From assembly GCF_017355935.1 (NCBI RefSeq), contig NZ_JAFIQT010000004.1, positions 1-64,000 on the forward strand: a stretch of 64,000 bases of DNA, given 5' to 3'. Position numbers and translations under genes: made by a program. Below the pieces are notes generated by a model. The model did not search any database and was not told the origin of the DNA. It saw nothing but the letters and a program-made list of their open reading frames with translations. Positions 3,584 through 42,519 of this stretch are shown here, one piece after another. Source of the stretch: Telluribacter humicola (lineage in GTDB: Bacteria; Bacteroidota; Bacteroidia; Cytophagales; Spirosomataceae). Position 1 is the first letter of the stretch. Each line of letters starts with the position of its first letter.

Positions 3584-3803
3584 GGTAGTGGTAAATATTA
3601 AGGTGATTTGGATTTGTTGTAGTAGTTGATAAAGTTGAGGATTCGCCCAAAGTGACTGTCATCTGTTTTGGCAAAAGCTAATGTTTTTCTGGTTAGATGA
3701 GGCTGGCGCTGCCTGAGCGTATTGCGGCCCGCCGCTGCGGTTGAAGCGCTCTATATGAGCGGTGCCACCTGCTTTTTTGGTAGTGTCTATCCGCAGGAAT
3801 GAC
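3584..3803 (-). mobile_element. IS1-family fragment (3' part of transposase)
   Basis: The fragment starts at the IS1 terminal sequence GGTAGTGGTAAATATTAAGG (3584) and contains the last third of the InsB transposase on the minus strand. It matches the intact copy at 38632-39395 from the VIPPDRHYQKAGG region to NFINYYNKSKSP. It is cut off at 3803, where it joins an IS3 remnant. It also has one extra A in an A run (before GCAGG) and one 16-nt hairpin element. It is not functional. Confidence 0.85.
3724..3739 (-). repeat. 16-nt hairpin element A, in IS1 transposase
   Basis: On the gene strand it reads CGCA GCGG CGGG CCGC: leader, stem, loop, stem. Compared with the intact IS1 copy (IERFNNTLRQR, about 38.78 kb), exactly 16 nt are added between the two Asn codons next to the catalytic-Glu motif. 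Element D occupies the same site in another IS1 copy. Confidence 0.85.
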
Positions 3804-3939
3804 CGCTATTGATGATTTCCGGCTTGCCATGTCGGGATACTGTTGCCTGCAAAAGCTCAGTCTGTGTTTCTTTTTCCAGGCTATTGGATAGCTGCCAGCC
3901 GACGATATAGCGGCTGTATAAATCCATAATGGCCGTCAG

Positions 3940-3955
3940 CCGGGTCGCCGGTGAG
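3940..3955 (-). repeat. 16-nt hairpin element B, in IS3 orfB
   Basis: On the gene strand it reads CTCA CCGG CGAC CCGG. It lies between MKHGFMY and LTAIMDLYSR, just before the second catalytic Asp. Taking out these 16 nt gives TAT-CTG-ACG-GCC and rejoins the frame. It differs from element I at 42504 by one base. Confidence 0.85.
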
Positions 3956-4255
3956 ATACATAAATCCATGTTTCATAGGCACATAGCTGATATCCAAGGC
4001 CCATACCTGATTGGGACGGCAGATTTCAAGGTTTCTAAGCAAATATGGATGAATGTATTTCGCTTTCCCTAGACGACTAAGGTTACGTTTGGGGTAAATC
4101 GGCTCAATGGCCATTTTCCGTAGCAACCGACGAATGCGTTTGACATTGTAGTTCATCCCTTTTTCTGCCAGCTCATCTTGCATACCCAGTACGCCTAAAG
4201 TTGGATCAGACAAGAATAGTTTGTCCATCATTTCCATCAGCCTCAGGTTCTCTTC

Positions 4256-4271
4256 CGCTTCGGCGTACCGA
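4256..4271 (+). repeat. 16-nt hairpin element J, in IS3 orfB (antisense)
   Basis: On the plus strand it reads CGCT TCGG CGTA CCGA. It lies in antisense orientation to orfB. Its outer stem pair is T-A instead of G-C or C-G, so pairing is kept. Removing it restores P-T-G-E-K-E-E-N-L-R-L-M. Confidence 0.75.
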
Positions 4272-4381
4272 TTTTTCACCAGTAGGCCTATAATACAGTT
4301 GACTGTGGTTAATGTTCAGAATCTGCGCTTGCCGACGAATGCTTAGTGGATGACTATTGTCGATCAATGCCATACGCTCCT

Positions 4382-4694
4382 TCATAGACCGGCTTTTTTC
4401 AAGTTTTTTTTTAAATAGTCGTTCTCTACTTGAAGCTGACCGATCTGCTTAAAAAGATTGTCAACGTCAACAGAATCCTCTTCTTTTGAGGATTCATCTC
4501 CGAATGCCTTTTCTGCGCGTTCCAGAAATTCACGCTTCCAGGCCGATACCTGGGTTGGCCGGGTGGCCGGTGCCATGAATTTCAAATCGGGTGGCCAGTT
4601 CGCTCAATGATTCCCGCTCTTTCAAGGCCTCAACAGCCACCATTGCCTTAAATTTCGCTGTAAATTTCCTCCGGCTTTGTTTCATCTTCTTCAT
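4382..4694 (-). pseudogene. IS3 orfA (helix-turn-helix), broken
   Basis: The start region reads MKKMKQSRRKFTAKFKAMV and continues ALKERESLSELATRFEIH, the N-terminal HTH of IS3 OrfA proteins. It is interrupted by a 16-nt hairpin element (4559-4574). In another frame it resumes with PTQVSAWKREFLERAEKAFG and a coiled-coil tail IGQLQVENDYLKKNLKKAGL. In the intact family FEIHPTQVSAWKREFL is continuous, so the 16 nt account exactly for the break. Confidence 0.8.
4559..4574 (-). repeat. 16-nt hairpin element C, in IS3 orfA
   Basis: On the gene strand it reads GGCA CCGG CCAC CCGG. It splits FEIH and PTQVSAW in the HTH region. It differs from element H in a serine recombinase at 37161 by a single leader base. 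Confidence 0.85.
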
Positions 4695-4752
4695 CGGTTT
4701 TATGTCAAGTTACTAAACTTAACCGATGGCCTCAAATTTGGGGAGTATTACA

Positions 4753-5028
4753 GGCTTGGCGCTCTCCCCTTATCCCTTCCAAATATGACCTTTCCCAAAA
4801 CAGGTTCTGTTTAACATAAGAGAGCTAATAGAACAGGCTGTGAAGTGTGCAATTTACAACTGATTCGAGTTGATATAGATTAATGATACTAGAACAACCT
4901 TAAAGCTATAACTGCTAGCACATACCAACTCTGAAGGCTGGCAAATAATTCAGTTTTCTTTTGCCTCCCAGGGTCATTGTTAGGAAAAATCTGGATTGCT
5001 CCTTTATTTGCAACAAATACGTGGCAGC
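4753..5028. other. intergenic, upstream of rhaT
   Basis: AT-rich sequence between the IS3 end and the rhaT start. I see no gene and no clear promoter motif. Confidence 0.4.
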
Positions 5029-6081
5029 ATGCAAGCTCTATTAGGGATAATTTATCATACTATTGGTGGTGGCTTTTCGGGCAGTTTCTATATGCCTTTC
5101 AATAAGGTCAAAGGCTGGTCCTGGGAGAGTTTCTGGATCATCGGTGGCCTTTTTTCCTGGCTTATTATGCCTCCACTGGCAGCTTACTTAACCATTCCTG
5201 ATTTTACTAGTATCATTGACTCTGCCTCTTTTAAGGTTAAATCCATTACATTCTTTATGGGTTTGCTTTGGGGTATTGGTGGTCTAACCTACGGATTGGG
5301 CGTCCGCTACCTAGGTATGTCGCTAGGGAATTCTGTGGTCTTAGGCTTCTGCTCGGCATTTGGTGCCTTGGTACCATCCATATATTATGATTTTAATCCT
5401 GAAAGGGGAAAAGCCTCTTTTACTGAAATGCTGCGGTCAGGTGGAGGCCAATTAGTGTTGCTTGGGGTACTTGTCTGTATACTGGGAATTGCTATTTCTG
5501 GCAAAGCCGGCATGATGAAAGAACAGGAGCTTTCCGATGAAGCAAAGAAAGCCAGTGTAAAAGAATTCAGTCTAACAAAAGGATTGGTTATTGCTATTTT
5601 CTCCGGTATTTTGAGTGCCTTTTTCAATTTTGGCATTGAGGCAGGGAAACCACTGGCTGATCAGGCCGTTGTGCAAGGAGGTAATCCGCTGTTTCAGAAC
5701 AATGTTACCTATGTCGTGCTGCTCTGGGGGGGACTGACCACTAACTTTGTATGGTGTATGTATTTAAATGCAAGGAATAAAACGTTTGGTGACTATACCA
5801 ACCGCAACACTCCAATTGCGTCAAACGTCTTGTTTGCGGGTATAGCCGGTTCCATGTGGTTTTTACAGTTTTTCTTTTATGGGATGGGCGAGAGCAAACT
5901 TGGAAATGGGGCCAGTTCCTGGATTACCCATATGGCAACTATTATTCTGACGGCTAATTTTTGGGGCCTTTACCTTAAGGAGTGGGCGGGTGTTTCAACC
6001 AGAACCTTTAAAACATTTGTTGCTGGAATCGTTGTCATTCTGCTTTCCATTGTATTAGTGGGAATCGGCAATTCTTTATAA
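5029..6081 (+). CDS. rhaT: L-rhamnose/proton symporter RhaT family
   Basis: This is a ten-helix membrane protein of the RhaT family (drug/metabolite transporter superfamily). It has the family start MQALLGIIYHTIGGGFSGSFYMPF, where small residues precede a conserved xxPF/Y motif. It also has the internal GLLWGIGGLTYGLGVRYLG repeat and the late NRNTPIASNVLFAGIAGSMW segment. I place the start at 5029 (MQALL), where family members begin, rather than at the upstream ATG at 4996, which would add eleven atypical residues. It should import L-rhamnose or a related deoxysugar with protons. No rhamnose catabolic genes are adjacent, so the substrate is inferred from family only. Confidence 0.85.
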   Translation: MQALLGIIYHTIGGGFSGSFYMPFNKVKGWSWESFWIIGGLFSWLIMPPLAAYLTIPDFTSIIDSASFKVKSITFFMGLLWGIGGLTYGLGVRYLGMSLGNSVVLGFCSAFGALVPSIYYDFNPERGKASFTEMLRSGGGQLVLLGVLVCILGIAISGKAGMMKEQELSDEAKKASVKEFSLTKGLVIAIFSGILSAFFNFGIEAGKPLADQAVVQGGNPLFQNNVTYVVLLWGGLTTNFVWCMYLNARNKTFGDYTNRNTPIASNVLFAGIAGSMWFLQFFFYGMGESKLGNGASSWITHMATIILTANFWGLYLKEWAGVSTRTFKTFVAGIVVILLSIVLVGIGNSL

Positions 6082-6178
6082 GTCATTTATTTAGGAAGAT
6101 ACGTAATAGGACTCTCAAAGTAGCTTAGGCTGCCAGGGGATATGAAAGAATTTTAGACTAAACATAGCTGCTTTTCTC

Positions 6179-6490
6179 ATGGAAGCCCCACATTCCCAAT
6201 ACCCACACGAAGTCATTAACAGTCCTTCGTTCCGTCAGTTGGTGCGCCGCCGCTGGGCTGTTTCTATGGTACTCACGCTGGCCATGCTTACCGTGTATTT
6301 TGGATTTCTGTTAGTGGTTGCCTTTAACAAGTCCTTCCTGGCGCAGATGGTTGGTAAGAACCTTACTCTAGCCATTCCGGTTGGATTAGGGATTATTCTC
6401 TTTGCCTGGATTCTGACCGGTGTTTATGTATACTGGGCCAACAACCAGTATGACCAGGAGGTTGCAAAGCTCAAAGCCAAACTAAAGTAA
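6179..6490 (+). CDS. DUF485 small membrane protein (YjcH-like)
   Basis: The 103-residue protein has two hydrophobic segments (about 30-52 and 65-88) and the DUF485 signature SPSFRQLVRRRWAVSMVLT followed by LTLAIPVGLGIILFAWILTGVYVYWAN. DUF485 proteins nearly always precede an acetate/solute:sodium symporter, as here with 39 nt to the next gene. The probable role is an accessory subunit or assembly factor for the symporter, by association. Confidence 0.85.
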   Translation: MEAPHSQYPHEVINSPSFRQLVRRRWAVSMVLTLAMLTVYFGFLLVVAFNKSFLAQMVGKNLTLAIPVGLGIILFAWILTGVYVYWANNQYDQEVAKLKAKLK

Positions 6491-6529
6491 AGTATCTTCT
6501 CTTCAAGCTCTCAACCGCTCATAACGCAC

Positions 6530-8101
6530 ATGGCTTTTGCCTCCCCATTACTCCAAGTGGCCCCTGCTTCTACCTTAGGCACCGCTAACCCCATTTCCAT
6601 TGGCATGTTCTTTCTTTTTGTGGCCGTTACCATGTATATTACATACTGGGCTGCCAAGAGGACAAAGACCGGTTCAGAATTCTACGCCGCCGGGCGAAAT
6701 ATCTCGGGATTCCAGAACGGCCTGGCCCTGGCGGGTGACTACATGAGCGCGGCCTCTTTCCTGGGTATTGCGGGCATGGTCGCCACCAAAGGCTATGATG
6801 GTCTCATTTATTCGATTGGGTTTCTGGTGGGCTGGCCGCTGATCATGTTCCTGATAGCAGAGCCCTTGCGTAACCTGGGCAAATATACTTTCGCTGATGT
6901 GGTGGCTTACCGTTTGCGCCAGCGCCCTATCCGGATTGTCTCGTCAGTGGGTTCGCTGTTGACCATTGCCTTTTATCTTATCGCGCAGATGGTGGGTGCC
7001 GGAGGTCTGATCAGGACCTTGTTCGGCTTGCAATATGAAGTAGCCGTCGTTGTAGTAGGCATTGTGATGACGGCTTATGTCCTGTTTGGCGGAATGCTGG
7101 CCACTACCTGGGTGCAAATCATCAAGGCAGTGTTATTGTTGGGCGGGGCTACGGTGCTCGTACTGCTTTCACTAGCCCGGTTCGGGTTTAGTCCAGCCGC
7201 CCTGTTTGATTCTGTAACCTTGCAGTACGGTGAGGAAATGCTCTCACCCGGTGGTTATATTACTAATCCATTTGATGCCCTTTCGCTGGGCCTGGCCCTG
7301 ATGCTGGGTACAGCCGGGCTGCCTCACATTCTGATGCGTTTTTATACTGTACCCGATGCCAAGGCCGCTCGTAAATCGGTGTTTGTGGCCACAGGCTTCA
7401 TCGGGTACTTCTACCTGCTTACATTTTTGATCGGCTTCTCCGCTATGGCTCTGGTGGGTAAAACGCCCATTGAAAACATAGACAAGGGCGGCAACATGGC
7501 AGCTTTGCTTTTAGCAGAGCATACCGGCGGCACTGCTTTCCTGGGCTTCATCGCAGCGGTGGCTTTCGCTACTATTCTGGCCGTTGTGGCCGGACTTACC
7601 TTGTCAGGGGCTTCCAGCATCTCGCATGACCTGTATGTGCACGTGTTCAAAAACGGCATCTCTGATGAGCAGGGCGAAATGAAAGTAGCCAAACGTGCCA
7701 CTATTGCCCTGGGTATTCTTTCTATCGTACTGGGACTGGTGTTTAAAGGACAAAACGTAGCATTTATGGTGGGCCTTGCCTTTTCTATTGCCGCCAGCGC
7801 CAACTTCCCAGCCTTGCTCATGTCCATCATCTGGAAGCGATTCACCACCAGGGGCGCGGTTTGGAGCATTGCTACGGGCGCTATCCTGTCTCTGGTCCTA
7901 ATTGTCCTGAGCCCTACCATCATGGTCGATATCATGGGGCGGGATGAGGCTATTTTCCCGCTTAAAAATCCGGCGCTGGTCTCCATGTCCGGAGCTTTTC
8001 TGATGGGTATAGTAGTGTCACTTTTACAGCCTGAGCCTTCGGCTGCCGCCAAGTTTGAGTCTGAAAAACTCAGGACCTATCTGGGCGTGGGCTCAGAGTA
8101 A
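6530..8101 (+). CDS. actP: cation/acetate symporter, sodium:solute symporter family
   Basis: The 523-residue protein is a sodium:solute symporter of the ActP/MctC branch with about 13 membrane spans. Typical sequences are [20 protein letters not shown] near residue 53, [39 protein letters not shown] near residue 255, and [18 protein letters not shown] near residue 355. It should import acetate or other short monocarboxylates with Na+. It forms a two-gene operon with the DUF485 protein. The transcript ends at the bidirectional terminator at 8141-8176. Confidence 0.88.
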
Positions 8102-8140
8102 GCACAAACATTTTAAGTAAATACTTTTTGTTGAATAAGC

Positions 8141-8176
8141 TAAAGACCAATCCAGCCGCGGCTGGATTGGTCTTTA
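8141..8176. terminator. bidirectional rho-independent terminator
   Basis: This is a perfect 36-bp palindrome. The left arm starts TAAAGACCAATCCAGCCG and the right arm is its exact complement, with an A/T-rich edge on both sides. It lies between the convergent actP and gapN-like genes and can serve both. Confidence 0.85.
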
Positions 8177-8183
8177 GAAGCTT

Positions 8184-9809
8184 TCAGAATAAAAATTTGG
8201 TGCTTAAAAAATTAGACTCATGGTGATTAACAATACCATTGAGCAATTCCTTGTTAATATCATTCAGCTTGGTAGCCACCAGAGATCGGATTGAAAAAGA
8301 ACGTAAGGCATCGTGTACAGACAAGGTTCCTTCGGCGCTGTCCTTTCTTCCGGTAAATGGGAAAACATCTGGACCGCGCTGACATTGGGCGTTGATATTA
8401 ACCCTGCTTACCAGGTTAACAAAAGAATCAATCAGTAAGGCGGTTTCTTTGGAATCATTACTAAAAATACTAACCTGCATGCCATGAGGAGAATCAATTT
8501 GGTAAGCAATGGGTTCTTCCAGGGTTTCAAAGGGGACTACAGGTATTACGGGTCCAAACTGTTCTTCACGGTAAAGCCTCATTCCCTCCGTGACCGGATA
8601 TACCACCGCTGGATATACAAATGATTGAAAAGACTCACCTCCATTCGGATTGACAACCCGGGCACCCCTGGTAATAGCATCGTCTATACATGCTTTCAGG
8701 TACGCTGGTTTCCCGGGTTCCGCAACCGGAGTAATGGTCACACCCTTCTCCCAGGGCATTCCTATTGGTAGGTTTGCTATTCTCTCACTTAGCAGTTCAA
8801 GAAATTCTTCGGCTACTTCCCTATGTACATGAATAATTTTAATGGCCGTGCATCGCTGTCCATTGAATGATAAGGCACCTAGTATACACTCCGCAGCAGC
8901 CAGTTGTAAGTCTGCATTTTTGGTTATAATCGCAGCATTTTTGGCATCCAGACTAAGTACAGAACGCAGGCGGTTGATCTTTGGGTGGCGCTTTTTTAAA
9001 TCATTGGCTACCTTACTTGAACCGATAAAGGCCAGTACATTGATTTTCCCCGTTTCCATTAAGCCAGGTGTTACATGGGCTCCACGGCCGTATACTGTAT
9101 TCACTACCCCTTTTGGAAAGGATTCTTTGAAAGCAGTTAGCAGAGGATAGTGGACAAGGGTTCCATGCTTTGGGGGCTTAAACAAAAGGGTATTGCCCAT
9201 GATGATTGCAGGAATCAGTGTAGTGAAGGTTTCATTAAGTGGATAGTTAAAGGGGCCCATACACAGGACAACGCCTAATGGCGAACGTCGTATTTGAGCC
9301 ACAATTCCCTCCGCCATTTCAAAACGGGAAGACTGACGATCTATATCTTTTAGGGCATCGATGGTAAGGTTGATGTATTCTATGGTTCTGTCAAACTCCT
9401 TAGTAGAATCGGCTAATGATTTACCAATTTCCCACATTATAAGTTTTATCACCAGACTACGCTGTTGATCCATTTTATAAACAAACTTTTCCAGGCACTT
9501 AATACGCCCTTCAATACTCATGGTTGGCCATTCTCCCCGCCCATTATCGTAAGCAGCGATGGCAGCATCAAGAGCCTGCGCTGCCTCTTTCTCCGTAGCC
9601 AGTGGATAAGAACCCAAAAGCTTCTTTTTGTAGCCATCAACGGTACGTATACTGATGGGCGAGAAAACCTCGTGGACCTCCCCTGTCCATTCTACTAACT
9701 CCCCATTGATCAAGATTTCTCTTTGGTGAATTTCAGCAGGTAACTGGTAAGCTTCCGGAATTGCTTCTTCCTGTACAATCGTTTCTTGCAAACTGGTTAA
9801 TAGGTTCAT
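8184..9809 (-). CDS. gapN: NADP-dependent glyceraldehyde-3-phosphate dehydrogenase-like aldehyde dehydrogenase
   Basis: The 541-residue aldehyde dehydrogenase superfamily protein resembles GapN, which oxidises glyceraldehyde 3-phosphate to 3-phosphoglycerate with NADP+. Visible motifs are GPFNYPLNETFTTLIPAIIMGNTLLFKPP (cofactor site, near 183-211), FIGSSKVANDL near residue 262, LSFNGQRCTAIKIIH with the catalytic Cys near residue 318, and EEQFGPVIPVVPF. The position that is usually ELGGK, with the general-base Glu, reads SLDAK here. This may be a trait of this subgroup. The gene is convergent with actP and lies before an amino-acid permease gene on the same strand. Confidence 0.8.
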   Translation of the reverse strand: MNLLTSLQETIVQEEAIPEAYQLPAEIHQREILINGELVEWTGEVHEVFSPISIRTVDGYKKKLLGSYPLATEKEAAQALDAAIAAYDNGRGEWPTMSIEGRIKCLEKFVYKMDQQRSLVIKLIMWEIGKSLADSTKEFDRTIEYINLTIDALKDIDRQSSRFEMAEGIVAQIRRSPLGVVLCMGPFNYPLNETFTTLIPAIIMGNTLLFKPPKHGTLVHYPLLTAFKESFPKGVVNTVYGRGAHVTPGLMETGKINVLAFIGSSKVANDLKKRHPKINRLRSVLSLDAKNAAIITKNADLQLAAAECILGALSFNGQRCTAIKIIHVHREVAEEFLELLSERIANLPIGMPWEKGVTITPVAEPGKPAYLKACIDDAITRGARVVNPNGGESFQSFVYPAVVYPVTEGMRLYREEQFGPVIPVVPFETLEEPIAYQIDSPHGMQVSIFSNDSKETALLIDSFVNLVSRVNINAQCQRGPDVFPFTGRKDSAEGTLSVHDALRSFSIRSLVATKLNDINKELLNGIVNHHESNFLSTKFLF

Positions 9810-9897
9810 TTTAAATTAGTAGTTAGAAAAAGAATTAGTATGTATGGTTAGAAGAAGGATGGGCTGGATCGGCCAAACCTGGCTGTTTAGAGCTATT

Positions 9898-14473: not shown

Positions 14474-14937
14474 ACTATTCTCTTCATATACAGGTAGATA
14501 CTACTGTTAACAAGCCTGTTATTGAAGTGGATGAAATGTACTCTTTTTTGTCGGCAGCAAGCGAATCAAAACTTGGATCTGGTTAGCTATTGAGCGTAAT
14601 AGCAGTCAGATAGTGGGTTTGGCTACTGGCGACCGTAGTGAATACTGTGGACAGCTGTTGTGGGAAAGCTTACCTAAGTTTTACCAACAAAATGCAGTTT
14701 TTTACACTGATCTGTATCCTGTTTATGAAAGTGTTATTCCAGCCGACAGGCATTATCAAAAAGCAGGTGGTACCGCTCATATTGAAAGATTTAATCGCAG
14801 CGGCGACCCGCAATACACTTAGGCAAAGGCAGCCTCATCTAACCAGAAAGACATTAGCCTTTGCTAAGACTGATGACAGTCACTTTGCCAGAACTCTCAA
14901 CTTTATCAATTACTACAATAAATCTAAATCACCTTAA
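14474..14937 (+). pseudogene. insB: IS1 InsB transposase part, broken
   Basis: The sequence runs VIEVDEMYSF, then VGSK-RIKTWIWLAIERNSSQIVGLATGDRSEYC after two surplus T residues (six T instead of four). It continues YTDLYPVYESVIPADRHYQKAGGTAHIERFN, then hairpin element D, then NTLRQRQPHLTRKTLAFAKTDDSHF. The DDE-type catalytic acids are in DEMYSF, TDLYPVY and IERFN. The extra TT plus 16 nt total 18, so the net frame is recovered only after the element. Confidence 0.88.
14796..14811 (+). repeat. 16-nt hairpin element D, in IS1 transposase
   Basis: It reads CGCA GCGG CGAC CCGC and lies between TTTAAT and AATACA, the two Asn codons after IERF. This is exactly the site of element A in the other IS1 remnant. 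The two elements differ at two loop bases. The intact IS1 copy at 38.6 kb lacks it. Confidence 0.9.
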
Positions 14938-16015
14938 TATTTACCACTACCATAATCGGTATAATTATTATTTGAGTAATCTCAAAAAACATTTTCCCAA
15001 ATTCAATGAAAATAAATTCTCCTGCTAATAGCTTCATAAGCGCTGGTGTTAGAACCGGAGCAAGCAGAGTAGCAATGGAGGTTATTGTTATAGAAAGCGG
15101 AACGTTAGCTTTGGCTATAAAGCACATTACATTTGAGGCTAGACCACTGGGAGAACACTCAATTAAAATTACACCGGCAGCAATCTCGGGAGGGAAATTA
15201 AAAAGATAAGCTAACGTAAATCCTAAAAATGGCATAATCACAAATTGACATACAATACCAATTAGTACTGCCCGGGGAGTTTGAATTACGCTCCCAAAAT
15301 CTTTAATGGAAAGGGTAGTGCCCATACCTAGCATGATGAGTTGCAGGAGGGGGATAATTAGGTTCTTTAATTGGAAACCGCCTATTGCTGTAAACGGAGC
15401 AGGAAAAAGGAGGGCTAAAATTACAACAAGAATGATTAAGCAGGTATAAATGAGATTACGCCAGCCAGTGTTACCAATTGTTTTAGCCTCCATATATCAG
15501 AATAGAGTAGAAGATCAGGAATAATTATTTATTGATCCGTGAATTAATCTGTCATAAACGCTATTTCCTTCTTATTGAAGAAGGCCCTTACCAACGCAGG
15601 GGCCTCCTCTAAATGCTTTACTTGTTCAAGAATCGCTGCTGTTAGTCCTTCCAAGTTGGTAAACACCCGATTCTTCAAACTGCCTTTCAGTTGGTTCCAG
15701 ACCAGTTCGACTGGATTAAGCTCCGGACTGTAGGCCGGTAAGCGTTCTAAATGAATTCGACCTGGTCGTTCACGCAGGAACTGCTTCACTGGTTCACTGC
15801 GATGGATAGCTGCACCGTCCCAGATAACTAATAAATCCCGCTTGCGATAGCGTCCACAGAGTTTCTTTAAAAACCAGACGATGTCCTCACCGGTAAAGGC
15901 CTGTTCTTGGCCGGCAACATAAATCCGCCCGTTTGGAGCGACAGCAGCAATCAAGCTTCAATGTGTTCGACCTGCTTGCTCAATGAGAATTGGTGTCTGC
16001 CCACAAGGAGCCCAA

Positions 16016-16030
16016 GCGGCCGCCGCTGCG
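16016..16030 (-). repeat. 15-nt hairpin element E, in-frame variant in IS630
   Basis: On the gene strand it reads CGCA GCGG CGG CCGC. It is element A minus one G of the loop. Because it is 15 nt, it adds five alanines in frame in the first catalytic domain instead of shifting the frame. The canonical spacing LLPxxxxTWAP shows that these codons are extra. Confidence 0.75.
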
Positions 16031-16247
16031 GTCATAGCTAGTAAGGGCAGCAGGTAGCAAGCTGACTCATCTACGTATAAAATCACTCGTCCCTCATCCT
16101 TGGCTTTTTTTAAGCGTTGGGATAATTTCTTGCTGCCACTGAGCAACTGCCTGAGGATCTTGTTGCCGTGCTTTGCGCTGCGGTTTTTGGCGACTCCAGC
16201 CCATCTTTTTCAGAATCCGACCTATCTGAGACGGATCGTAACTTACC

Positions 16248-16263
16248 CGCGGTGGCGGACCAC
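16248..16263 (+). repeat. 16-nt hairpin element F2, in IS630 (antisense)
   Basis: On the plus strand it reads CGCG GTGG CGGA CCAC. It is the only copy with a T-A second stem pair; both partners changed. It splits KLFG and VSYDPSQIG of the transposase. Confidence 0.85.
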
Positions 16264-16283
16264 CCGAATAGCTTCTTGATGAC

Positions 16284-16299
16284 TGCTCCGGCAGCCCGG
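16284..16299 (+). repeat. 16-nt hairpin element F1, in IS630 (antisense)
   Basis: On the plus strand it reads TGCT CCGG CAGC CCGG. It splits RVNE and VIKKLFG, only 20 nt from element F2 in the same orientation. Removing exactly 16 nt gives AAT-GAA-GTC-ATC. Confidence 0.85.
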
Positions 16300-16723
16300 T
16301 TCATTGACACGGAGACGTGTCCAGATAGCCCCGTTGAAGCCATGGTGCTCGGCTCCTTTATTGAGTTCTGCAACTAATTGGTTGAGTTACTCACTTGATA
16401 AGCGAGCGGGTGCTCCAGTCCGCTTGCCTTCTTGCAATGCCATTGCTCCTTGCTGCTGATATTTCTTCAAGGTCCGACTCACCCAAGGTTGCGTCAAGCC
16501 AAATGCTTGAGCAATTGCTGCCTGCCTCCAACCTGCTTCATGGAGCTCGACACAACGTCGGCGCAGGGCTTCATAGTCACTTTGTTTATATCTTGCCATC
16601 AAACCATAAAGAACTCAATATAACAAACTTACTCACGTATCAATAATAAGTGTACGACTTAGCAACTAGTGTACAACTCTATATCATACTGCAAAACGAC
16701 CCTTTTAGTAAACAGGTAAGCAT

Positions 16724-23792: not shown

Positions 23793-24426
23793 ATGCCCCG
23801 GACTATTGCCTATTTACGTGTCTCGACATTAGACCAGGATCTGGAAAAGAACAAGGCCGACATCCTGCACCTGGCCAATGAGAAAAATTTAGGGAAAGTA
23901 GAATTCGTACCGCGGCGGCGGACCGCAAGAGAAGGTGTCAGGTAAGGTTGCATGGCGTAACCGCAAAATTGGCCCGCTCCTAGAAGATTTAAAAAAGGGA
24001 GATGTGATTCTGCTCAGTGAATTCTCCCGGCTGGGAAGATCGATGCTCGAATGCATGGAGATCATTTCCATCGCCATGCAAAAGGGCATCAAGATCTATA
24101 CTGTAAAAGGAGCCTGGCAGCTGGATGAGTCTATACAGAGCAAAGTGATGGCCATGGTTTTCTCGATGGCCTCCGAAATTGAAAGGGACCTGATCAGTAA
24201 GCGCACCAGAGAGTCCCTGGCGGCAAAGAAACTATCCGGAGTAAAACTAGGTCGGCCCACTGGCCCGGGGAAAAGTAAACTCGACCAGTACAGGCCAGAA
24301 ATTGAAGCTTTGCTGCTGAATGGATCGAGTCAGAAGTACATTGCCGACCGCTACCGCATCACGGAAGCCACTCTGTCAAATTGGATGAAGAAGAATGGTA
24401 TCAAAAAATACAAAAGGGCTGCTTGA
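23793..24426 (+). pseudogene. serine recombinase (resolvase/invertase), interrupted
   Basis: The N-terminus MPRTIAYLRVSTLDQDLEKN has the catalytic Ser in the RVST motif. The frame stops after GKVEFV because of a 16-nt element (23911-23926) and resumes in another frame with QEKVSGKVAWRNRKIGPLLEDL. It continues EFSRLGRSMLECMEI (active-site Arg pair) and MASEIERDLISKRT, and ends with a Hin-like HTH, YIADRYRITEATLSNWMKK. Removing 16 nt gives GTA-CAA-GAG and a complete protein of about 205 residues. Nothing else is broken. Confidence 0.88.
23911..23926 (+). repeat. 16-nt hairpin element G, in serine recombinase
   Basis: It reads CGCG GCGG CGGA CCGC and sits between GTAC and AAGAG in the EFVQEKVSG motif. 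It is the only defect in an otherwise complete recombinase gene, which makes it the cleanest test case in the window. Confidence 0.9.
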
Positions 24427-25551: not shown

Positions 25552-25566
25552 TTCAAAAAAGTACAT

Positions 25567-31333: not shown

Positions 31334-31897
31334 ATGAACAAAGTCTTTGGGTACGCCCGGGTTTCCACCGCTGATCAGAGTACCGACACCCAGATAGAAG
31401 CCTTACAGAAGTACGGCTGCGACCGCATCTTTCAGGAGAAGATATCCGGCCTATCAGTTCAGCGCCCCGCCCTGGACGAAATGCTGTCCCTACTCCGCGA
31501 AGGTGATACCGTCGTAGTTTCACGCTTTACCCGCCTGGGCCGCAGCCGCGACCACCTGATCAACCTGATCGGAGATTTTGCCAGTAAGGGCATTATCTTC
31601 AAAGCTCTTGATCTGGGTATTGACTCCGCTACTCCGGCCGGTAAGTTAGTCATCGGGATATTTGCTGCCCTGGCTGAATATGATAGAGAGATGATCCTCG
31701 AAAAGACCCGTGCCGGCCAGCTGTTGGCCAAGGCCAAAGGCAAGCACATAGGTCGACCTTCCGGAGTAAACCAGGATAACTACCATAAAGTAAAAAAAGC
31801 CCTCGATAAAGGGCTTTCAGTGGCTGAGATAGTCAACCTGACCGGTATCAGTATTTCCAGTGTCAAACGGTACCGCAAGGAAATCAGTAGCAAGTAA
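31334..31897 (+). CDS. serine recombinase (resolvase/invertase), intact
   Basis: The 187-residue protein has MNKVFGYARVSTADQSTDTQ with catalytic Ser, FQEKISGLSVQRPALDEML, VVSRFTRLGRSRDHL with the active-site Arg residues, AEYDREMILEKTRAGQLLAK on the E helix, and a C-terminal HTH (SVAEIVNLTGISISSVKRYRKE). This is the full Hin/resolvase architecture, with no insertion at the sites where the other two recombinases in the window are hit. Confidence 0.92.
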   Translation: MNKVFGYARVSTADQSTDTQIEALQKYGCDRIFQEKISGLSVQRPALDEMLSLLREGDTVVVSRFTRLGRSRDHLINLIGDFASKGIIFKALDLGIDSATPAGKLVIGIFAALAEYDREMILEKTRAGQLLAKAKGKHIGRPSGVNQDNYHKVKKALDKGLSVAEIVNLTGISISSVKRYRKEISSK

Positions 31898-35112: not shown

Positions 35113-35205
35113 GCTATAATACTGCCATAGGGGCATTCGCTGTTTCTCAACCGGCCCTTCCATCATACTACGTTCAGGTTATCAAGTAAGTCTGCATCAG
35201 GGGTG

Positions 35206-35433: not shown

Positions 35434-35550
35434 CATCAGATACACGGGTTTAGTCGCTTTTCCATCAGCTACCGTGGATTACAATGTTATTAAAGGAAGC
35501 GCCGAGGTAAGCCAAACCACTACCTATAAGAGCGGATTTGACAAGTGGAA

Positions 35551-35982
35551 TCAAAGGCCCTTATTTCTAAAAAGCTCCTGCCGTTTCATACAGAACTTTT
35601 CTAAATATCGGGTATGGGATGCTTTCAGTGGTTTACTAAAAATTTCTATGACACAATTGTAACTATGCGCCTTCAAAATGTCATTCGGATTAACCGAAGA
35701 GGAGAGCATACAGAAACACACCTGGGGGAACTTCTTTTCATAGAGTAACATATAGGCATCCAGAAACTCCCAGCCATTCATCAGGGGCATGTACACATCA
35801 AGTAGTACCAGCTCCGGAACCTGCCCGTCGGCCCCTTTGTCCAGGGCTTCAAAGAAGGCTAATCCCTCCCTTCCATTACTAACAGTATGAATATTTTCAG
35901 CAAAATGATTATCAAGCAGCGTGGTCTTAATTAAATCAATAGTCAAATCATCATCATCAATCAAAAGAACATTTTTAAACAT
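35551..35982 (-). CDS. single-domain response regulator
   Basis: The 143-residue protein consists of a receiver domain only. The acidic cluster is LLIDDDDLT, the phospho-acceptor Asp lies in LVLLDVYMPLMNGWEF, the Thr/Ser position in CMLSSS and Lys in FSKPLK. With no output domain, it probably acts in a phosphorelay or by protein contact. It is divergent from the other receiver gene at 36251. Confidence 0.88.
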   Translation of the reverse strand: MFKNVLLIDDDDLTIDLIKTTLLDNHFAENIHTVSNGREGLAFFEALDKGADGQVPELVLLDVYMPLMNGWEFLDAYMLLYEKKFPQVCFCMLSSSVNPNDILKAHSYNCVIEIFSKPLKASHTRYLEKFCMKRQELFRNKGL

Positions 35983-36250
35983 TATTAAAGGTAACCCTTT
36001 ATTAGCTGGTAATTACTATTTATTTGACAATCAATAATTTATACCCTTGACAGGCCGGAGAGGTACTTTGTTTTTAACATCTCAAGAGCCAATGACTGCC
36101 TGAGGTCACTACTCCGGACGCCGTCTTAGCTTCTTGCAGAGCACCGTAGCCGGTGTCCCCACAGACAATGACCTACTTTAACCACGTCTATTGGACCGTA
36201 GAGAAGCTTTTGACATTAATTATTGGCTCTATGGATAGTCGTGACAACTT

Positions 36251-36690
36251 ATGAATAAAACAAAACAGGCACCATCATCATTATCGAAGACGACCCGGAG
36301 GACCAGCTGCTGCTGGAAGAAGTATTCAAAGTTCTGGGCTACCCTAACAAAAGGATGTATTTCACCGATGGATTATCGGCCCTGGACTATTTGTATACAA
36401 CCCCGGACCGGCCTTATATTATTATCTCAGATATAAATCTACCCAAACTCAACGGCCTGGAACTAAGAAAGAAAATGCAGTCCGACGCCGAGCTGAGTCT
36501 GAGGTGCATTCCTTACATATACTTTACCACAGCGCAAAACCAGCAGGCTGTTATTGAGGCTTACAGTAGCTCGGCGCAGGGTTTCTTTGTAAAGCCTGCT
36601 TCATTTGCCGAAATCAAAGAAACCCTCCAGGTGATAATTGAGTATTGGAAAAAGTGTAAGGCTCCCAACAATTTTTTTCCCCAACCCTAG
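36251..36690 (+). pseudogene. single-domain response regulator, frameshift at codon 4
   Basis: The receiver domain reads TIIIIEDDPEDQLLLEEVFKVLGYPNKRMYFTDG, then IIISDINLPKLNGLELRKKM (Asp), IYFTTAQ and FFVKPAS (Lys). The ATG at 36251 is out of frame with it because AAAAC is present twice (AAAACAAAACAGG). One copy would give MNKTGTIIIIEDD. With no other in-frame start before conserved residues, the gene is off in this configuration, unless slippage or an alternative start is used. Confidence 0.75.
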
Positions 36691-36809
36691 CCCCACCCGC
36701 CCCTGGGTCTATACTCCGATAGTACCCCCATCAGTTGTAGAGTTACATACACTACTAGCCCAAAACAAATAAGCTAAAATCAGCACGCGACAGGCCTTTT
36801 TGCTTAATT

Positions 36810-36968
36810 ATCCTTATGGTTTATAAGACCGTTTAAATGATAATATCTTGGCCGGTTTGCTCATCAATCCCTGATCGACCTGACCCTTCTTTCTGCCATT
36901 ATTTATATTGCCATGTAATTTAACTAAGTGTATTATATCCGCACTTGTTGAGTTTCATAAACAGTATG
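36810..36968. repeat. 159-bp inverted repeat, right copy
   Basis: This is the inverted partner of 23551-23709. It ends at the start codon of the recombinase gene at 36966, so it includes that gene's promoter and probably a recombination site. Confidence 0.75.
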
Positions 36969-37527
36969 GCATACATAGGATACGCACGAGTCTCCACGAT
37001 GGAGCAGAACTTGAACATGCAGCTGGATGCGCTGCAGAAAGAAGGATGTAGTAAAATCTTTAAGGATAAAGTATCCGGAGTGAAGGCGGGTAAGCCCAAC
37101 CTCGAGAAGCTGATGGAGTATACCCGACCGGGGGATACTATTGTGGTTTGGAAGCTGGATGGCTCCGGCCACCCGGCGGTTGGGAAGAAGTACCATTCAA
37201 CTCATTGAGCTGGTCGAAGAACTAAAGAAGAGAGGAGTAAATTTAAAATCACTCTCTGAGTCTATTGATACCAGCACTGCCACCGGTAACTTGTTCTTTC
37301 AGTTCATGTGTATCCTGGCTGAGCACGAGCGCAACATTATCAGAGAGCGTACTAGGGCTGGACTCGCATCAGCCCGAGCCAAGGGACGCACTGGACGACG
37401 GCCTAAGGGACTTAGTGAGCGCTATTAGAAGATTGCTCCGGAAGTGAGGGCGATTTATGAGCTAAATATACGTAGCACAGAAGCTATAAGAGAGATATTA
37501 CAAATCAAAAGCCAACCTAATAGATAG
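36966..37527 (+). pseudogene. serine recombinase (resolvase/invertase), interrupted
   Basis: The protein reads [20 protein letters not shown] (catalytic Ser), [18 protein letters not shown] and [10 protein letters not shown] 16-nt element (37161-37176) then shifts the frame, which resumes as [40 protein letters not shown] and GRRPKGLSERY. A TAG at 37426-37428 follows, and the frame continues to an HTH-like IRSTEAIREILQIK before TAG at 37525. The hairpin element lies exactly before the active-site RLGRS. Confidence 0.88.
37161..37176 (+). repeat. 16-nt hairpin element H, in serine recombinase
   Basis: It reads GGCT CCGG CCAC CCGG and lies between CTGGAT and CGGTTGG. Taking out the 16 nt restores K-L-D-R-L-G-R-S, one of the most conserved motifs of the family. 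Confidence 0.9.
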
Positions 37528-37535
37528 ATAAAGAT

Positions 37536-38030
37536 TCAGCTTGCAAAATGTTCTTGCTTATATTTTGCTACTATTACTAAGAATACAAATCCTACAACAA
37601 GTAAAGTTACAAAAAGCCATTTGGCTTTATTGATACTTTCTTGATTTTTTCCATCTACACTATAAGCATCAACCTGTTCAAGGTTCCATGTAAAAGGATT
37701 TAATATAAAGTAAATAAAAATTAAAATTATACCTGATGCGCTATATGTATTAGGTATCTTTTGAAGGATATTTAAAGGTTTAAAGTACATTTCTAAAAGG
37801 GTTATCAATGGAAGTAGCCATATACCGATTAATAGACATAATGTGAGTTTTGCAAAGAAAAGATGTGATCTACTTCCTGAAAATCTCATTCGTATCTTAT
37901 GATTGAGATATAGAGCAGCTAAAATGTTGTTAATAGAACTCATTGTACTTTGACTATATTTTATCTTGTTTAACATTGAGCATAACTTTCCATGCTCATC
38001 AAATACCATCTTGACGACGACCGGCTGCAC
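37536..38030 (-). CDS. hypothetical membrane protein
   Basis: 164 residues, or 134 from a likelier start at MSSINNILAAL. Two hydrophobic segments (AKLTLCLLIGIWLLPLITLLEMY and SASGIILIFIYFILNPF) are followed by a third near the end. No family is recognised. It is the first of a row of minus-strand genes resembling an immunity-gene island. Confidence 0.5.
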   Translation of the reverse strand: MQPVVVKMVFDEHGKLCSMLNKIKYSQSTMSSINNILAALYLNHKIRMRFSGSRSHLFFAKLTLCLLIGIWLLPLITLLEMYFKPLNILQKIPNTYSASGIILIFIYFILNPFTWNLEQVDAYSVDGKNQESINKAKWLFVTLLVVGFVFLVIVAKYKQEHFAS

Positions 38031-38090
38031 CTTTCCTAAGGGGTTCGATGAGTATGAAGCTACTAAGGAAGTTGTGCTGGCTGTAGCTGC

Positions 38091-38175
38091 CTTTGGTCAT
38101 TAGATAGCTATAAGCAAGGAGTGTGCCGTCTCTTTCATGTGGGGCTCTGATAAAAGGTAATTTTATCTAATGGTT
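38091..38175. repeat. dispersed repeat, copy 1 of 2
   Basis: It resembles 39841-39930, sharing ATAAGCAAGG, GTGTGCCGT, ATGTGGGGCT and TTTTATCTAATGG in order. On the minus strand it reads RDGTLLAYSYLMTKGSY, a likely remnant of a duplicated gene end. Confidence 0.5.
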
Positions 38176-38631
38176 GCTCATACAGGATATGCTATAACTG
38201 TGCATATAAGGTAAATGTACAAACCTCACATTAAGCTCTCATATATATTCTAATGGTCGTTTAATTTTAGGACAAGGTAAGCCCTCAGTTCCAGGAATTA
38301 TTTGGTAATTTCTTTTTAGTTTGGCCGCTACAAAGGTGCAACCATCCTCAGCATTTGCTAACTCCCTAACACGCTCTTTATTTAATTCTATAGAGTTTAT
38401 TAAGATCTAAGTACTTTACTTATATCTTTTAGATTCTTGGGTTATTAAGGCTTCCAAATCTTCTAAGTTTATCTTTAACGAGTTTGATGTTATTGTAATA
38501 GGAGAGCCATAAATTTTGCAAGTCATTTCTGCGGCTCGCTTTAAAATAGAATTATTAGTTCTTTGTATATATTTTTGAGGATTATTGGTATGCAATATTA
38601 AAAACTTTGCCGACATGACCTGCTTTTTCTC

Positions 38632-39395
38632 GGTAGTGGTAAATATTAAGGTGATTTGGATTTGTTGTAGTAGTTGATAAAGTTGAGGATTCGCCCAAAG
38701 TGACTGTCATCTGTTTTGGCAAAAGCTAATGTTTTTCTGGTTAGATGAGGCTGTCGCTGCCTGAGCGTATTGTTGAAGCGCTCTATATGAGCGGTACCAC
38801 CAGCCTTTTGATAATGCCTGTCTGGCGGGATAACAGCTTCATAGACTGTATATAGGTCAGTGTAGAAGACAGCGTTCTGCTGATAGAAACTATCTATACT
38901 TTCCCACAGAAACTTACCGCAGTACTCGCTTCGATCGCCCGTAGCCAAGCCAACAATCTGCCTGCTTTCACGCTCTATGGCTAGCCAGATCCAGGTTTTA
39001 GTCTGTTTGCTGCCAACGAATGAAAACATTTCATCCACTTCAATAACAGGCCTGATCGTTGAAGTATCTACTTGTACAGCAAGTGAATCGTCTACTTTTT
39101 TTTAGCTAATTTTATAATTGTAGGACGACTTACGCCTGTCACACGCTGGATGCCGCGTAAGGACGTCCGTTCAAGCAAGAGCTTTTCCACCTGCTCGTAT
39201 CGCTCAGCTCGCTGCTGAGCCACATTGCTGATGGTGCCATACTTATTGCAGTCTTTGCAATGGTATTTTGGCTTGCCAGATGTAGAATGACCGTTCTTCC
39301 GTAAGTTTAAACTGCCGCAGCGTTGGCACCTATGATTTGTAGTTTCGCTGATCATGAGGCAAATATAAGAAATCACCCCTTAATTTACCACTACC
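38632..39395 (-). mobile_element. IS1-family element, intact, with 8-bp target duplication
   Basis: 764 bp bounded by GGTAGTGG and CCACTACC, with TTTTTCTC repeated at 38624-38631 and 39396-39403. The insA and insB frames are undamaged. This copy lacks the 16-nt hairpin element found at the same codon in the other two copies, so it is the internal reference for the intact gene. It may supply transposase in trans. Confidence 0.92.
38646..39355 (-). CDS. insAB: IS1 InsA/InsAB' transposase (programmed -1 frameshift)
   Basis: InsA (MISETTNHRCQRCG, zinc finger, HTH, stop at 39092) is followed in the -1 frame by InsB: PVIEVDEMFSFVGSKQTKTWIWLAIERESRQ, YTDLYTVYEAVIPPDRHY and IERFNNTLRQRQPHLTRK. A run of eight A at the InsA end (AAAAAAAAG) is the expected slippery site. 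Asp, Asp and Glu of the catalytic triad are present. Confidence 0.88.
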
Positions 39396-39840
39396 TTTTT
39401 CTCTACCTTAGTAATATCCTTCCACTCAATCAAACCAACACTCGTAGCATTAGAATTATCTGTTATCCCAAACTCATCAATAATCAAGCCTGGCTTATTG
39501 TCAAGTAATTTCCAGAGTATAAAGATTACACCAACTCCACAAAAGACCACTCCTGCAAAACCTGATATCCTAATAAGTTTAGAGCTTCTAAAAAAAGGTG
39601 AAACAAAATCTTCTGGTTTTACAGCTCCTAAATATCCAATTATTACAAATACTACACCTGCGATAAGAAGCAGTACTAGTTTCTTTCTACTCAATAGAAT
39701 TATGATTCTATCATTCATAATCAATAATATGAAATTACCTTCCATTATATAAGTTTTCAACACTTGGCCTGCGCCTGAGCTCCAATCACTACCAAAATTC
39801 CTTCCATATAATCACTGATTATCAAGTGGTGCAGGCCGTA

Positions 39841-39930
39841 GCTACCGTCGCTCATTCGATAGTTATAAGCAAGGTGTGTGCCGTACCTGTGAATGTGGGG
39901 CTATATAAGGATGAAATTTTATCTAATGGT
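39841..39930. repeat. dispersed repeat, copy 2 of 2
   Basis: Partner of 38091-38175. The minus strand reads RYGTHLAYNYRMSDGSYGLHH. Confidence 0.5.
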
Positions 39931-40032
39931 AGTTTAGCAATGTATAAGTAACTAATTTCAGTATCTGAGGAGCAACCTGATCATCAACAAGCTCCTGTAT
40001 ATATTTTAAGGGTCATTTTAGATTAGGAAGTG

Positions 40033-40464
40033 CTACTCATCGGGGTGGTGGTAAGCCGGAAGTCCTGCTGGTAGTTCTTTCCAACCTAACCTTGGGATAG
40101 TCACCAACGTATCCGGTACATCCAGATCCCAGAGTATCTTATGTTTTCTATAATCCTCACACCATACCTGAATCCAGTACCGTCGCCTCATTAGTTCTTC
40201 CTTATCTCTTTCCCACCATGAGCCTCCTGTGTTGTATATGTTAGCAGGATCATCCATAGTAAACCTTTTCCCATTAATATTATAGGTGTACTCTAATCTA
40301 AATTTACCTCTTAATCTAAATGTCCTTGTAGGTTTTGCTACTGTATATATGGAACACTGCTCTAGTTTCTCCTGCAGCCTATACTTGTCATATGCATAAA
40401 ACACCATGAATGATGCAACAAGAATGAAAAATATTGCAAGTTTAATATTTTTTTCTTCTGCCAT
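40033..40464 (-). CDS. hypothetical membrane-anchored protein
   Basis: 143 residues with one N-terminal hydrophobic segment (IKLAIFFILVASFMVFYAY), then a soluble domain with YTYNINGKRFTMDDP and WERDKEELMRRRYWIQVWCEDY. Similar small anchored proteins occur in Bacteroidota toxin/immunity islands. No function is assigned. Confidence 0.55.
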   Translation of the reverse strand: MAEEKNIKLAIFFILVASFMVFYAYDKYRLQEKLEQCSIYTVAKPTRTFRLRGKFRLEYTYNINGKRFTMDDPANIYNTGGSWWERDKEELMRRRYWIQVWCEDYRKHKILWDLDVPDTLVTIPRLGWKELPAGLPAYHHPDE

Positions 40465-40716
40465 TATTTATGTTGTTCTGAATAAACAGGTGTTTTGGCC
40501 TTATCTATTATTGTCGATGATCTGTGTAAACACACCAAATCTCGTTTTATGAGCAATGGGAGTCTCTTCATTACTATGTGTTAATACCAATCTTCTGAAG
40601 TTACCTTATAAACTAAACTGTGTATTAAAATGGTGGTTTTGCCGCACCAAGTCTTGCAGGTCATGTATAAGCACATCACCTACTACCTTTCCGCTGTGTT
40701 CAGATGATATTAGGGG

Positions 40717-41385
40717 CTATTTCTCGAATTCTAACTTTTTAGTATTATAGATTCTCTTTTTCATATTCTTTTCTGTATAAAAAGTAAGCTCAACTCTTTC
40801 ATTATCAATAAAGACAGCCCCTTTTCTCCAGTACAACGATGAAGTTGACTTACCATAATCATTCAGAGGAAATGGACTGATTTCTTCAAGTTTGTAGGTG
40901 CTCTTTGCATCACCTTTTTGATTATAGATAGCAAATACATTCACACCATATCCAATCGAATACCAGTTATCAAAAGTGGCAACCGACGAACCATCATTCG
41001 CAATTATTGCATGAACAGGGCAAGGATTATTCAGCATACTTCGCTTCCATATCAATACGCTTTCTGCTCCACTTACATCATACAGCTCTCCGGTACAAGG
41101 AGTTAGAACCGTGTCCTGCGCTGAGATATTGCGCAAGAATTTATCCTTTTTACGTAACATCTTTTTCGTTTGTGGATGTCTGTTACTTTTAAAGTATTCC
41201 CATCGATAATACTTCTCAGGAACGATTTGAGGCGTGATGATTAATTTATATTTTAGATTGTCAGAGTAATACACCTTTATTTTTGGTGGTTGCCAAATAT
41301 CAGCCCTAGCTTTAATGGAGCCAATAATACCCCAGAGTAAAATAAAGTAATGTAGATATCTATAAGACAGATACTTATTAATCAT
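40717..41385 (-). CDS. hypothetical secreted protein
   Basis: 222 residues with an N-terminal hydrophobic stretch (YLHYFILLWGIIGSIKARA) that looks like a signal peptide. The rest is soluble, with YDVSGAESVLIWKRSML and YSIGYGVNVFAIYNQKG. No family is recognised. It is part of the minus-strand row of small genes. Confidence 0.55.
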   Translation of the reverse strand: MINKYLSYRYLHYFILLWGIIGSIKARADIWQPPKIKVYYSDNLKYKLIITPQIVPEKYYRWEYFKSNRHPQTKKMLRKKDKFLRNISAQDTVLTPCTGELYDVSGAESVLIWKRSMLNNPCPVHAIIANDGSSVATFDNWYSIGYGVNVFAIYNQKGDAKSTYKLEEISPFPLNDYGKSTSSLYWRKGAVFIDNERVELTFYTEKNMKKRIYNTKKLEFEK

Positions 41386-41540
41386 ATTTATATTGTCTAA
41401 CTTCTTTGAAGGAAATATATGCTAGCTAATATTTCTTTTGATTGAATGTATGTATAGCCTAGATCATTCGCCTCGACCATTGTAGGTCAAATCGTCCCTT
41501 ATGTACTTTAAGGGTCCTTTTACAAGTATATTTTACACAG

Positions 41541-41975
41541 TTAAAGCTCATATTTTATTTTGACTTCTGTTGCAGTATTCACATTTTCTTCTTTTTCATA
41601 CCGGGTCGAAAGCTCTATAAAATAAATAGTCTTGTCTGCGGCATCCCTCTCATAGGAATAAATCCTTTCATACTCAAACTTTGAAGTATCAGGATTAGCA
41701 GTTTGAAAGTACCCATCACCAGAGAGAAGAAACACCTTACCATCTTCTCTAAATTTCAAATAGCCTGAGAAGCCATCATTTATACCTGAGTACTCGGCCC
41801 ATATCCTTGTGGCACTTCCATCTATATCCTGGTAGTAAAAGGTGGTTTTTCCACACTCATCAACTCTTTTGATTTTGGTACCTTTATACCCATAGGTTGT
41901 TTCTGTATCAATATCACAACATGAGCCTATTATTATAGATAACACGCACATTAGGCACTTACTGGTAGTAGTCAT
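41541..41975 (-). CDS. hypothetical lipoprotein
   Basis: 144 residues. A lipoprotein signal with candidate lipobox IGSC ends the N-terminal hydrophobic segment (CVLSIIIGSC). The domain that follows includes TTFYYQDIDGSATRIWAEY and GYLKFREDGKVFLLSGDGYF. The function is unknown. Confidence 0.55.
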   Translation of the reverse strand: MTTTSKCLMCVLSIIIGSCCDIDTETTYGYKGTKIKRVDECGKTTFYYQDIDGSATRIWAEYSGINDGFSGYLKFREDGKVFLLSGDGYFQTANPDTSKFEYERIYSYERDAADKTIYFIELSTRYEKEENVNTATEVKIKYEL

Positions 41976-41993
41976 TTAATATGAACAATTTGA

Positions 41994-42392
41994 TCAGAAT
42001 CTTGTATATCCACCTATAGAATTTAGATAAAGCCACGATGTTTTTAAGACTAATATATCTTCTCCTAAGTCATCTGTAACGATTAACATTTTGCGATCTT
42101 CTGTCTGATTAACCATTATGTTAGCAGAGTTATAGTTATAGGTTCCTAAATTGAACTTTTCAATTTCAGCTTGTACTAGGTCTATAATTACTTGTACCGC
42201 ATTTACATTCCTGTATGCCCATTTATCTGGCATAGGCTCTGGCAGTTCATATAAGTCAAACCTCAAACTAACAATTAAGTCTTTTCCAGTTAATACTTTA
42301 ACTTCATGAAGTAAAACATTTATAAAACTCGGTATATTGTCACGATACAATGCGAAAAGCGGCGCGCTTCTTTCAAGGTGAGAAAGCCACAT
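41994..42392 (-). CDS. immunity protein 50-like
   Basis: 132 residues matching the Imm50 pattern as I know it: PSFINVLLHEVKVL near the start, LIVSLRFDLYELPEPMPDKW in the middle, then VQVIIDLVQAEIEKFNL. Imm50 proteins protect against polymorphic toxins. The assignment rests on motif order only. Confidence 0.6.
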   Translation of the reverse strand: MWLSHLERSAPLFALYRDNIPSFINVLLHEVKVLTGKDLIVSLRFDLYELPEPMPDKWAYRNVNAVQVIIDLVQAEIEKFNLGTYNYNSANIMVNQTEDRKMLIVTDDLGEDILVLKTSWLYLNSIGGYTRF

Positions 42393-42503
42393 AGTTATTT
42401 AAATAAAGGGTGGTAATTAAGGGTTAAACAAGCTATGGTTTTGGTGCTCAAACCACCACGGGGTGCCTCGCTTGCTAATGAGTCTGTTTACCCTCATTTC
42501 CAT

Positions 42504-42519
42504 CTCTCCGGCGACCCGG
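42504..42519 (+). repeat. 16-nt hairpin element I, outside a known mobile gene
   Basis: It reads CTCT CCGG CGAC CCGG, one base different from element B. It lies in a short region between two island genes. A 54-codon minus-strand frame (42581-42417) passes through it. Without it a different frame would join ending TQMEMRVNRLISKRG. It is the only copy with no transposase or recombinase around it. Confidence 0.65.

Follow-up and report, generated by a model that had tools for sequence, protein, structure and literature searches.

The stretch of DNA considered here (the window) comprises the first 64,000 nucleotides of contig NZ_JAFIQT010000004.1 from Telluribacter humicola and is rich in dead transposase genes, among them IS1-like, IS3, and IS630-like remnants, and also contains genes for serine resolvases. 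Dispersed over it are eleven short hairpin sequences, which had been listed by a first-pass annotation and all of which were read directly in the window at the positions collected in Table 1. As described there, ten of them consist of 16 nt with a perfect 4-bp stem, and the copy at 16016 has 15 nt and a 3-base loop. Bases of an element are numbered from its 5' end as leader (L1–L4), stem (S1–S4), and loop (o1–o4), followed by the return strand of the stem, and the preceding genomic base is designated −1. Rfam gives no family match at gathering score across the window. Sequence comparison suggests that each of these 16-mers probably belongs to a family of very small mobile DNA elements, the loop of which would read a base of the target.

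Comparison of the interrupted genes with uninterrupted homologues, as the first-pass annotation had proposed, reveals exact insertions at IS1, IS3, and resolvase sites. When the three IS1-like copies of the window are aligned over the site, the copy at 38648 is uninterrupted, the copy containing 3724 has exactly 16 additional bases relative to it, and the copy containing 14796, on the other strand, is interrupted at this position by another 16-mer. If the intact IS3 transposase of another genome is employed as tblastn query, the frame switches exactly at the elements at 4256 (4269/4261) and 3940 (3947/3939). With the resolvase at 31334 as query, the copies at 23911 and 37161 align in two frames, the element marking their junction, and removal of 16 nt gives one open alignment, whereas removal of 15 or 17 nt does not. 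The earlier statement that deletion of 16 nt restores a recognisable protein holds for 3940, 4256, 23911, and 37161, and was verified at these four sites only. Insertion is found in both orientations, even within one gene (16016 versus 16248 and 16284), and no target duplication exists at the empty and filled sites compared, i.e., the IS1 site of the window and sites in the related genome G007.

Table 1. Hairpin elements of the 64-kb window, their host genes, and reference copies
Position	Strand	Feature	Sequence	Base −1	Loop base 3	Setting
3724..3739	-	Element	CGCA GCGG CGGG CCGC	C	G	IS1-like remnant
3940..3955	-	Element	CTCA CCGG CGAC CCGG	T	A	Broken IS3 transposase
4256..4271	+	Element	CGCT TCGG CGTA CCGA	C	T	Broken IS3 transposase
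4559..4574	-	Element	GGCA CCGG CCAC CCGG	T	A	Broken IS3
14796..14811	+	Element	CGCA GCGG CGAC CCGC	T	A	IS1 site shared with 3724
16016..16030	-	15-nt variant, loop one base short	CGCA GCGG CGG CCGC	C	G	IS630-like transposase
16248..16263	+	Element, compensated stem pair	CGCG GTGG CGGA CCAC			IS630-like transposase
16284..16299	+	Element, T-A leader/loop pair	TGCT CCGG CAGC CCGG			IS630-like transposase
23911..23926	+	Element	CGCG GCGG CGGA CCGC			Serine-resolvase gene
37161..37176	+	Element	GGCT CCGG CCAC CCGG			Second serine-resolvase gene
42504..42519	+	Element	CTCT CCGG CGAC CCGG			Stretch without Pfam match
38771..38772		Empty site				IS1-like copy lacking the 16-nt inserts seen at 3724 and 14796
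3640..4760		Degenerate IS1 end and IS3 transposase remnant				Four elements inside
15547..16614	-	Broken IS630-like transposase (DDE_3, HTH_33)				Three elements inside
31334..31897	+	Intact resolvase				No element; served as yardstick

A stepwise series of insertions is seen in G007, where a mini-transposon with 49 matches, ~180 bp long and bounded by AAGTACTT/AAGTAGTT-like ends, serves as a natural landing pad for 16-mers (L289-L318). At one site within it, copies with the same flanks contain 0 (four copies), 16 (one copy), 32 (ten copies), 48 (two copies), or 64 bases (three copies), besides a few damaged copies. The 16-base state is CGCGTCGGCGGTCCGA, and in the 32-base state a second 16-mer, CGCACGGGCGGCCCCG, is situated in opposite orientation within the loop of the first. 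The longer states consist of tandem 16-mers, which are probably duplications and not fresh insertions because their junctions violate the rule for base −1 described below. A second site of the mini-transposon possesses either one unit (16 nt) or three (48 nt). The empty site in G007 has a C at −1, complementary to the G at o3 of the inserted copy.

In the T. humicola genome (6.56 Mb in 24 contigs), for which genome-wide counts derive from pattern searches and selected stretches, the stem-plus-leader pattern KCNSCGGCNNNCCGS has 36+44 (80) matches versus 5+13 (18) for a reversed-pattern control. Perfect elements number 10 in the window, and 25 copies, mostly looser matches, are encountered in 40 other stretches (about 0.67 Mb). 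Of 151 Spirosomaceae genomes, 70 contain the strict subtype CGCNGCGGCGNNCCGC, at up to 79 copies each and with controls at zero or one; the related genome G040 has 79 copies, and its congener G061 has none. Among 396 genomes of the phylum, element counts outside the Spirosomaceae resemble the control. Copies are largely one identical 16-mer per genome. Fibrella aquatilis, from a genus which we take to belong to the Spirosomaceae, is a relative rich in copies. Heptad-like repeats together with the element fill two intergenic gaps of Fibrella G093, and at the orthologous places four sister species have short gaps and no element. A sequencing artefact is ruled out, as the elements are present across many independent genomes.

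Two pairing rules hold that had been overlooked in the first-pass annotation. According to the first, L1 is complementary to o2. In the window, this is the case for 10/10 perfect elements and, by inspection, for the 15-nt copy as well (11/11), the pairs being C-G, G-C, or T-A, and among stem-pattern matches of the T. humicola genome it is the case for 50 of 86. Given a pair between −1 and o3, with L1/o2 not required and sites with similar flanks removed, 29 of 36 matches comply (17.4 expected; 0 of 20000 shuffles). According to the second rule, −1 is complementary to o3. This is observed for 10 of the 11 elements of the window, 4256 being the sole exception, for 38 of 55 in the T. humicola genome (20.3 expected), and for 103 of 123 in relatives (63.6 expected), none of 10000 shuffles being as high in either set. 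The raw counts are inflated by the kinship of copies, and a strict filter against look-alike flanks was applied for this reason, after which 18 of 29 remain in the T. humicola genome (reached in 109 of 20000 shuffles) and 20 of 24 in relatives (0 of 20000). In both sets, −1 with o3 is the largest excess among all pairs of flank and element positions, and in this same comparison complementarity does not extend to −2/o4. Among T. humicola matches that fail the first rule, the second is not seen (14 of 49; 12.5 expected). Both rules were first noticed in the data of the first test; the second set of genomes is an independent check for the −1/o3 rule, and in it the L1/o2 rule was tested only within the combined set. 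The tests employ a stem pattern with a fixed GC or GGC core, so that families with other cores would escape.

Both pairs also change in a compensated manner at one and the same site. For L1/o2, C-G is replaced by G-C (CGCAGCGGCGAACCGC, GGCGGCGGCCAACCGC), and for −1/o3, C-G at 3724 is replaced by T-A at 14796, which share one IS1 site. The L2-o1 (G-C) and L3-S4 (C-G) pairs are near-constant or demanded by the search pattern and do not constitute independent evidence. Loop base 4 tracks the first base of the stem (C with C, G with A), a possible base triple.

A second 4-bp hairpin, overlapping the first, can form from bases −1 to L3 and S4 to o3. Hairpin B comprises the 4-bp stem and the 4-nt loop, and in hairpin A the bases −1, L1, L2, and L3 would be paired with the segment S4, o1, o2, o3. 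Since −1 pairs with o3 and L1 with o2, the loop seems to recognise the target by base pairing. In the single-stranded element, the loop would serve as guide by reading, beside the cut, both the target base and the first bases of the element itself, and a trans-acting single-strand DNA nuclease or strand transferase would join the 16-nt element to the 3' side of a matching A-N site. Cut-site recognition would resemble that at IS200/IS605-type ends, but with the guide located in the loop. The more specific proposition, namely that this is a 16-nt mobile DNA smaller than any described, the loop of which doubles as a guide so that insertion happens only where the target base matches the loop, has in our estimate an even chance of being correct. 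In the IS200/IS605 family (TnpA Y1), a guide sequence finds the cut site at the ends through base pairing (PMC6006769). The 16-mers are similar in that no target is duplicated on insertion; the strong complementarity of −1 and loop base 3 may point to a target recognised by base pairing here as well. They differ in that the guide would lie in the loop and not at the foot of the hairpin, and in consisting of one 16-nt unit with neither a right end nor a transposase gene.

Several results weigh against such mobile elements. Their movement is deduced from sequence comparison. The predicted fold of a single copy is no better than that of shuffles, folding being uninformative at such a length, so that the structural case depends on covariation. 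No enzyme for the 16-mers was found among the Y1 and reverse transcriptase (RVT_1) families searched: G093, with 24 copies, has no gene for a Y1 transposase (PF01797) at E ≤ 0.001, the 24 Y1 loci (PF01797) examined are free of perfect elements for 1.5 kb around, and the presence of RVT_1 does not track element copy number. Loss of the enzyme once the elements had spread, or its membership in a family outside those searched, could account for this. In addition, a crude hand count of strand versus replication in the relative G040, with the contig start assumed to be the origin, gives 28:20 and no clear bias, whereas a bias would be predicted for single-strand transposition of the IS200 type.

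The first-pass annotation knew of no described bacterial element with these properties, which was too strong, as we judge the small dispersed repeat (SDR) elements of cyanobacteria to be of the same kind. Elhai and co-workers reportedly described SDRs in 2008 from Nostoc and its relatives as units of 21–27 nt with precise insertion that are confined to one clade. Some SDRs are said to be nested in their own copies and some to lie within heptameric tandem repeats or mini-transposons, with a structure backed by compensated changes. The 16-mers share with them the precise insertion of units far shorter than 100 nt, for which empty sites are known, the nesting in their own copies, the presence in heptad repeats and mini-transposons, a common secondary structure supported by compensated changes, and the restriction to one clade. 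They differ in size and phylum, being 16 nt long and from Bacteroidota, whereas SDRs are reported to have 21–27 nt and to come from Cyanobacteria. We know of no report of an SDR loop base that pairs with a target base. The 16-mers would be a shorter Bacteroidota counterpart of the SDRs, with the target-base pair as a new feature. The 2008 study (doi 10.1101/gr.074336.107) is cited in two later papers (PMC3116915, PMC4390886), and SDR5 is inserted precisely within the octamer HIP1 (PMC4390886). Mitochondrial GC clusters are likewise short hairpins rich in GC that multiply within a genome, but they are found in organelle genomes and are generally longer (PMC4478555, PMC2800124). The 16-mers do not fit miniature inverted-repeat transposable elements, which are marked by terminal inverted repeats and target-site duplication, as no duplication is seen at empty and filled sites. 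No description of the 16-mer family was found in the literature searched, which leaves out most subscription journals.

After the SDRs, the systems nearest to the 16-mers are repetitive extragenic palindromic sequences (REPs) and the IS200/IS605 ends. REPs and the hairpins formed by REP doublets (REPINs) comprise 20–65 nt, possess GTAG or CGTC tags, lie beside genes for REP-associated tyrosine transposases (RAYT/TnpA-REP), and are mostly extragenic (PMC3116915, PMC3733652, PMC6006769). The 16-mers resemble REPs in their short tag with a hairpin, their many copies, and their inverted doublets, although singles are common too. The mobile unit might therefore be an inverted doublet driven by a RAYT-type Y1 transposase, with single 16-mers as decayed remnants; G040, G093, and G007 have many doublets of the same subtype with a spacing of 44–64 bp, and most element-bearing genomes examined encode some Y1 transposase. 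However, single 16-mers insert exactly and at known empty sites, and the doublet arms are inverted repeats far past the element, as if the entire arm had been copied, which makes this model unlikely. Membership in the REP/RAYT system itself was rejected on account of the tag (a variable leader NGCN or NTCN), the size of 16 nt, the missing Y1 neighbourhood, and the Y1-free genome G093.

Spread might instead be mediated by RNA, with a short RNA hairpin being inserted or reverse-transcribed, as was reportedly suggested earlier for cyanobacterial SDR elements. The compensated structure suits RNA equally with single-stranded DNA, and the Y1 search found no DNA transposase. The coexistence of both orientations in one gene (16016 versus 16248 and 16284) speaks against this route, and G009 and G007 are rich in elements without an RVT_1 gene, while several RVT_1-bearing genomes are without elements; we regard it as rather improbable. 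Reverse transcriptase as a partner was rejected for this lack of correlation.

The exact insert without target duplication and the many matches within mobile genes would also suit a 16-nt scar left after excision or repair by a larger transposon or nuclease system, yet scars would hardly share the NGC, CGG, and CCG bases across 70 genomes, nest in one mini-transposon family, or consist for the most part of a single identical 16-mer in each genome, and there is little to recommend this explanation. That the paired bases were made and kept by local template switching, i.e., by quasi-palindrome correction, would account for the compensated pairs at the same site but is highly improbable, as the pairing ends sharply at −1 with none at −2/o4, and the spread and common consensus would be left unexplained.

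With regard to the interpretation offered by the first-pass annotation, its guess of a minimal mobile hairpin, likened to mitochondrial GC clusters, is supported by empty and filled sites, nesting in steps of 16, spread through the family, and compensated changes. Its alternative, a system that damages mobile genes, finds no support in the distribution of the elements, since those of relatives are located in intergenic heptad repeats, inverted doublets, and mini-transposons, and several in T. humicola are intergenic beside ordinary genes, some of them upstream of genes for GMC oxidoreductases and SusD-like proteins. Most examined copies of relatives lie within heptad-like repeats, doublets, or mini-transposons; coverage by open reading frames in G040 and G093 is distorted by spurious long frames in GC-rich DNA. 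The concentration in mobile genes noted earlier is confirmed for T. humicola, with 10 of 11 elements in the window and ~22 of 38 genome-wide according to a hand tally of Pfam matches without formal test. About 12 pattern matches in long open reading frames of this genome were judged to be due to chance and excluded by hand, which affects only the table of 38 members and not the shuffle tests of the pairing rules, as these do not use it. Copies would survive where a frameshift is harmless, i.e., in dead transposase genes, intergenic heptad repeats, and mini-transposons, and because a frameshifting 16-mer persists only where the protein is dispensable, there is no need to invoke a targeting of mobile genes, although a modest preference for them is possible. 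Removal from RNA or translational bypass, also considered in the first-pass annotation, would be unnecessary, as the interrupted genes contain multiple insertions besides damage of other types, and their intact homologues lack insertions.

Elsewhere in the T. humicola genome, the element CGCACCGGCGACCCGG recurs in three identical copies, the flanks of which are alike, at C11:1639098, C11:1770047, and C17:485013 (L140:9998, L141:10047, and L114:10013), two of them at the start of GMC-oxidoreductase genes, and these copies were either duplicated along with the gene or retained for a function. Two more clusters of 3–5 elements in broken IS3-like genes are located at L049:13492-14422 and L126:11845-12516; a fragment of a rhamnose transporter gene (RhaT) adjoins one of them and likewise the cluster of the window. 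In the arms of long inverted repeats at L212, L224 (G040), L241, and L246 (G093), heptad-like units (TTACGAC) and the element occupy mirrored places, and one arm looks like a copy of the other. A separate Fibrella repeat of ~35 nt, often in inverted pairs ~30 bp apart, is unrelated to the 16-mers (L320:15498-15535 and many places in G009/G069).

For annotators, 16-nt frameshifts in Spirosomaceae can be insertions instead of sequencing errors. If the interpretation given here is true, the 16-mers would be among the smallest mobile DNA known and bring the size limit of mobile DNA down to 16 nt, and they would present a readable code for target choice in which one loop base is matched against one target base. 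As natural copies number in the hundreds and include nested series, with empty sites for comparison, the mechanism and the enzyme of such ultra-small elements are directly testable in this family.

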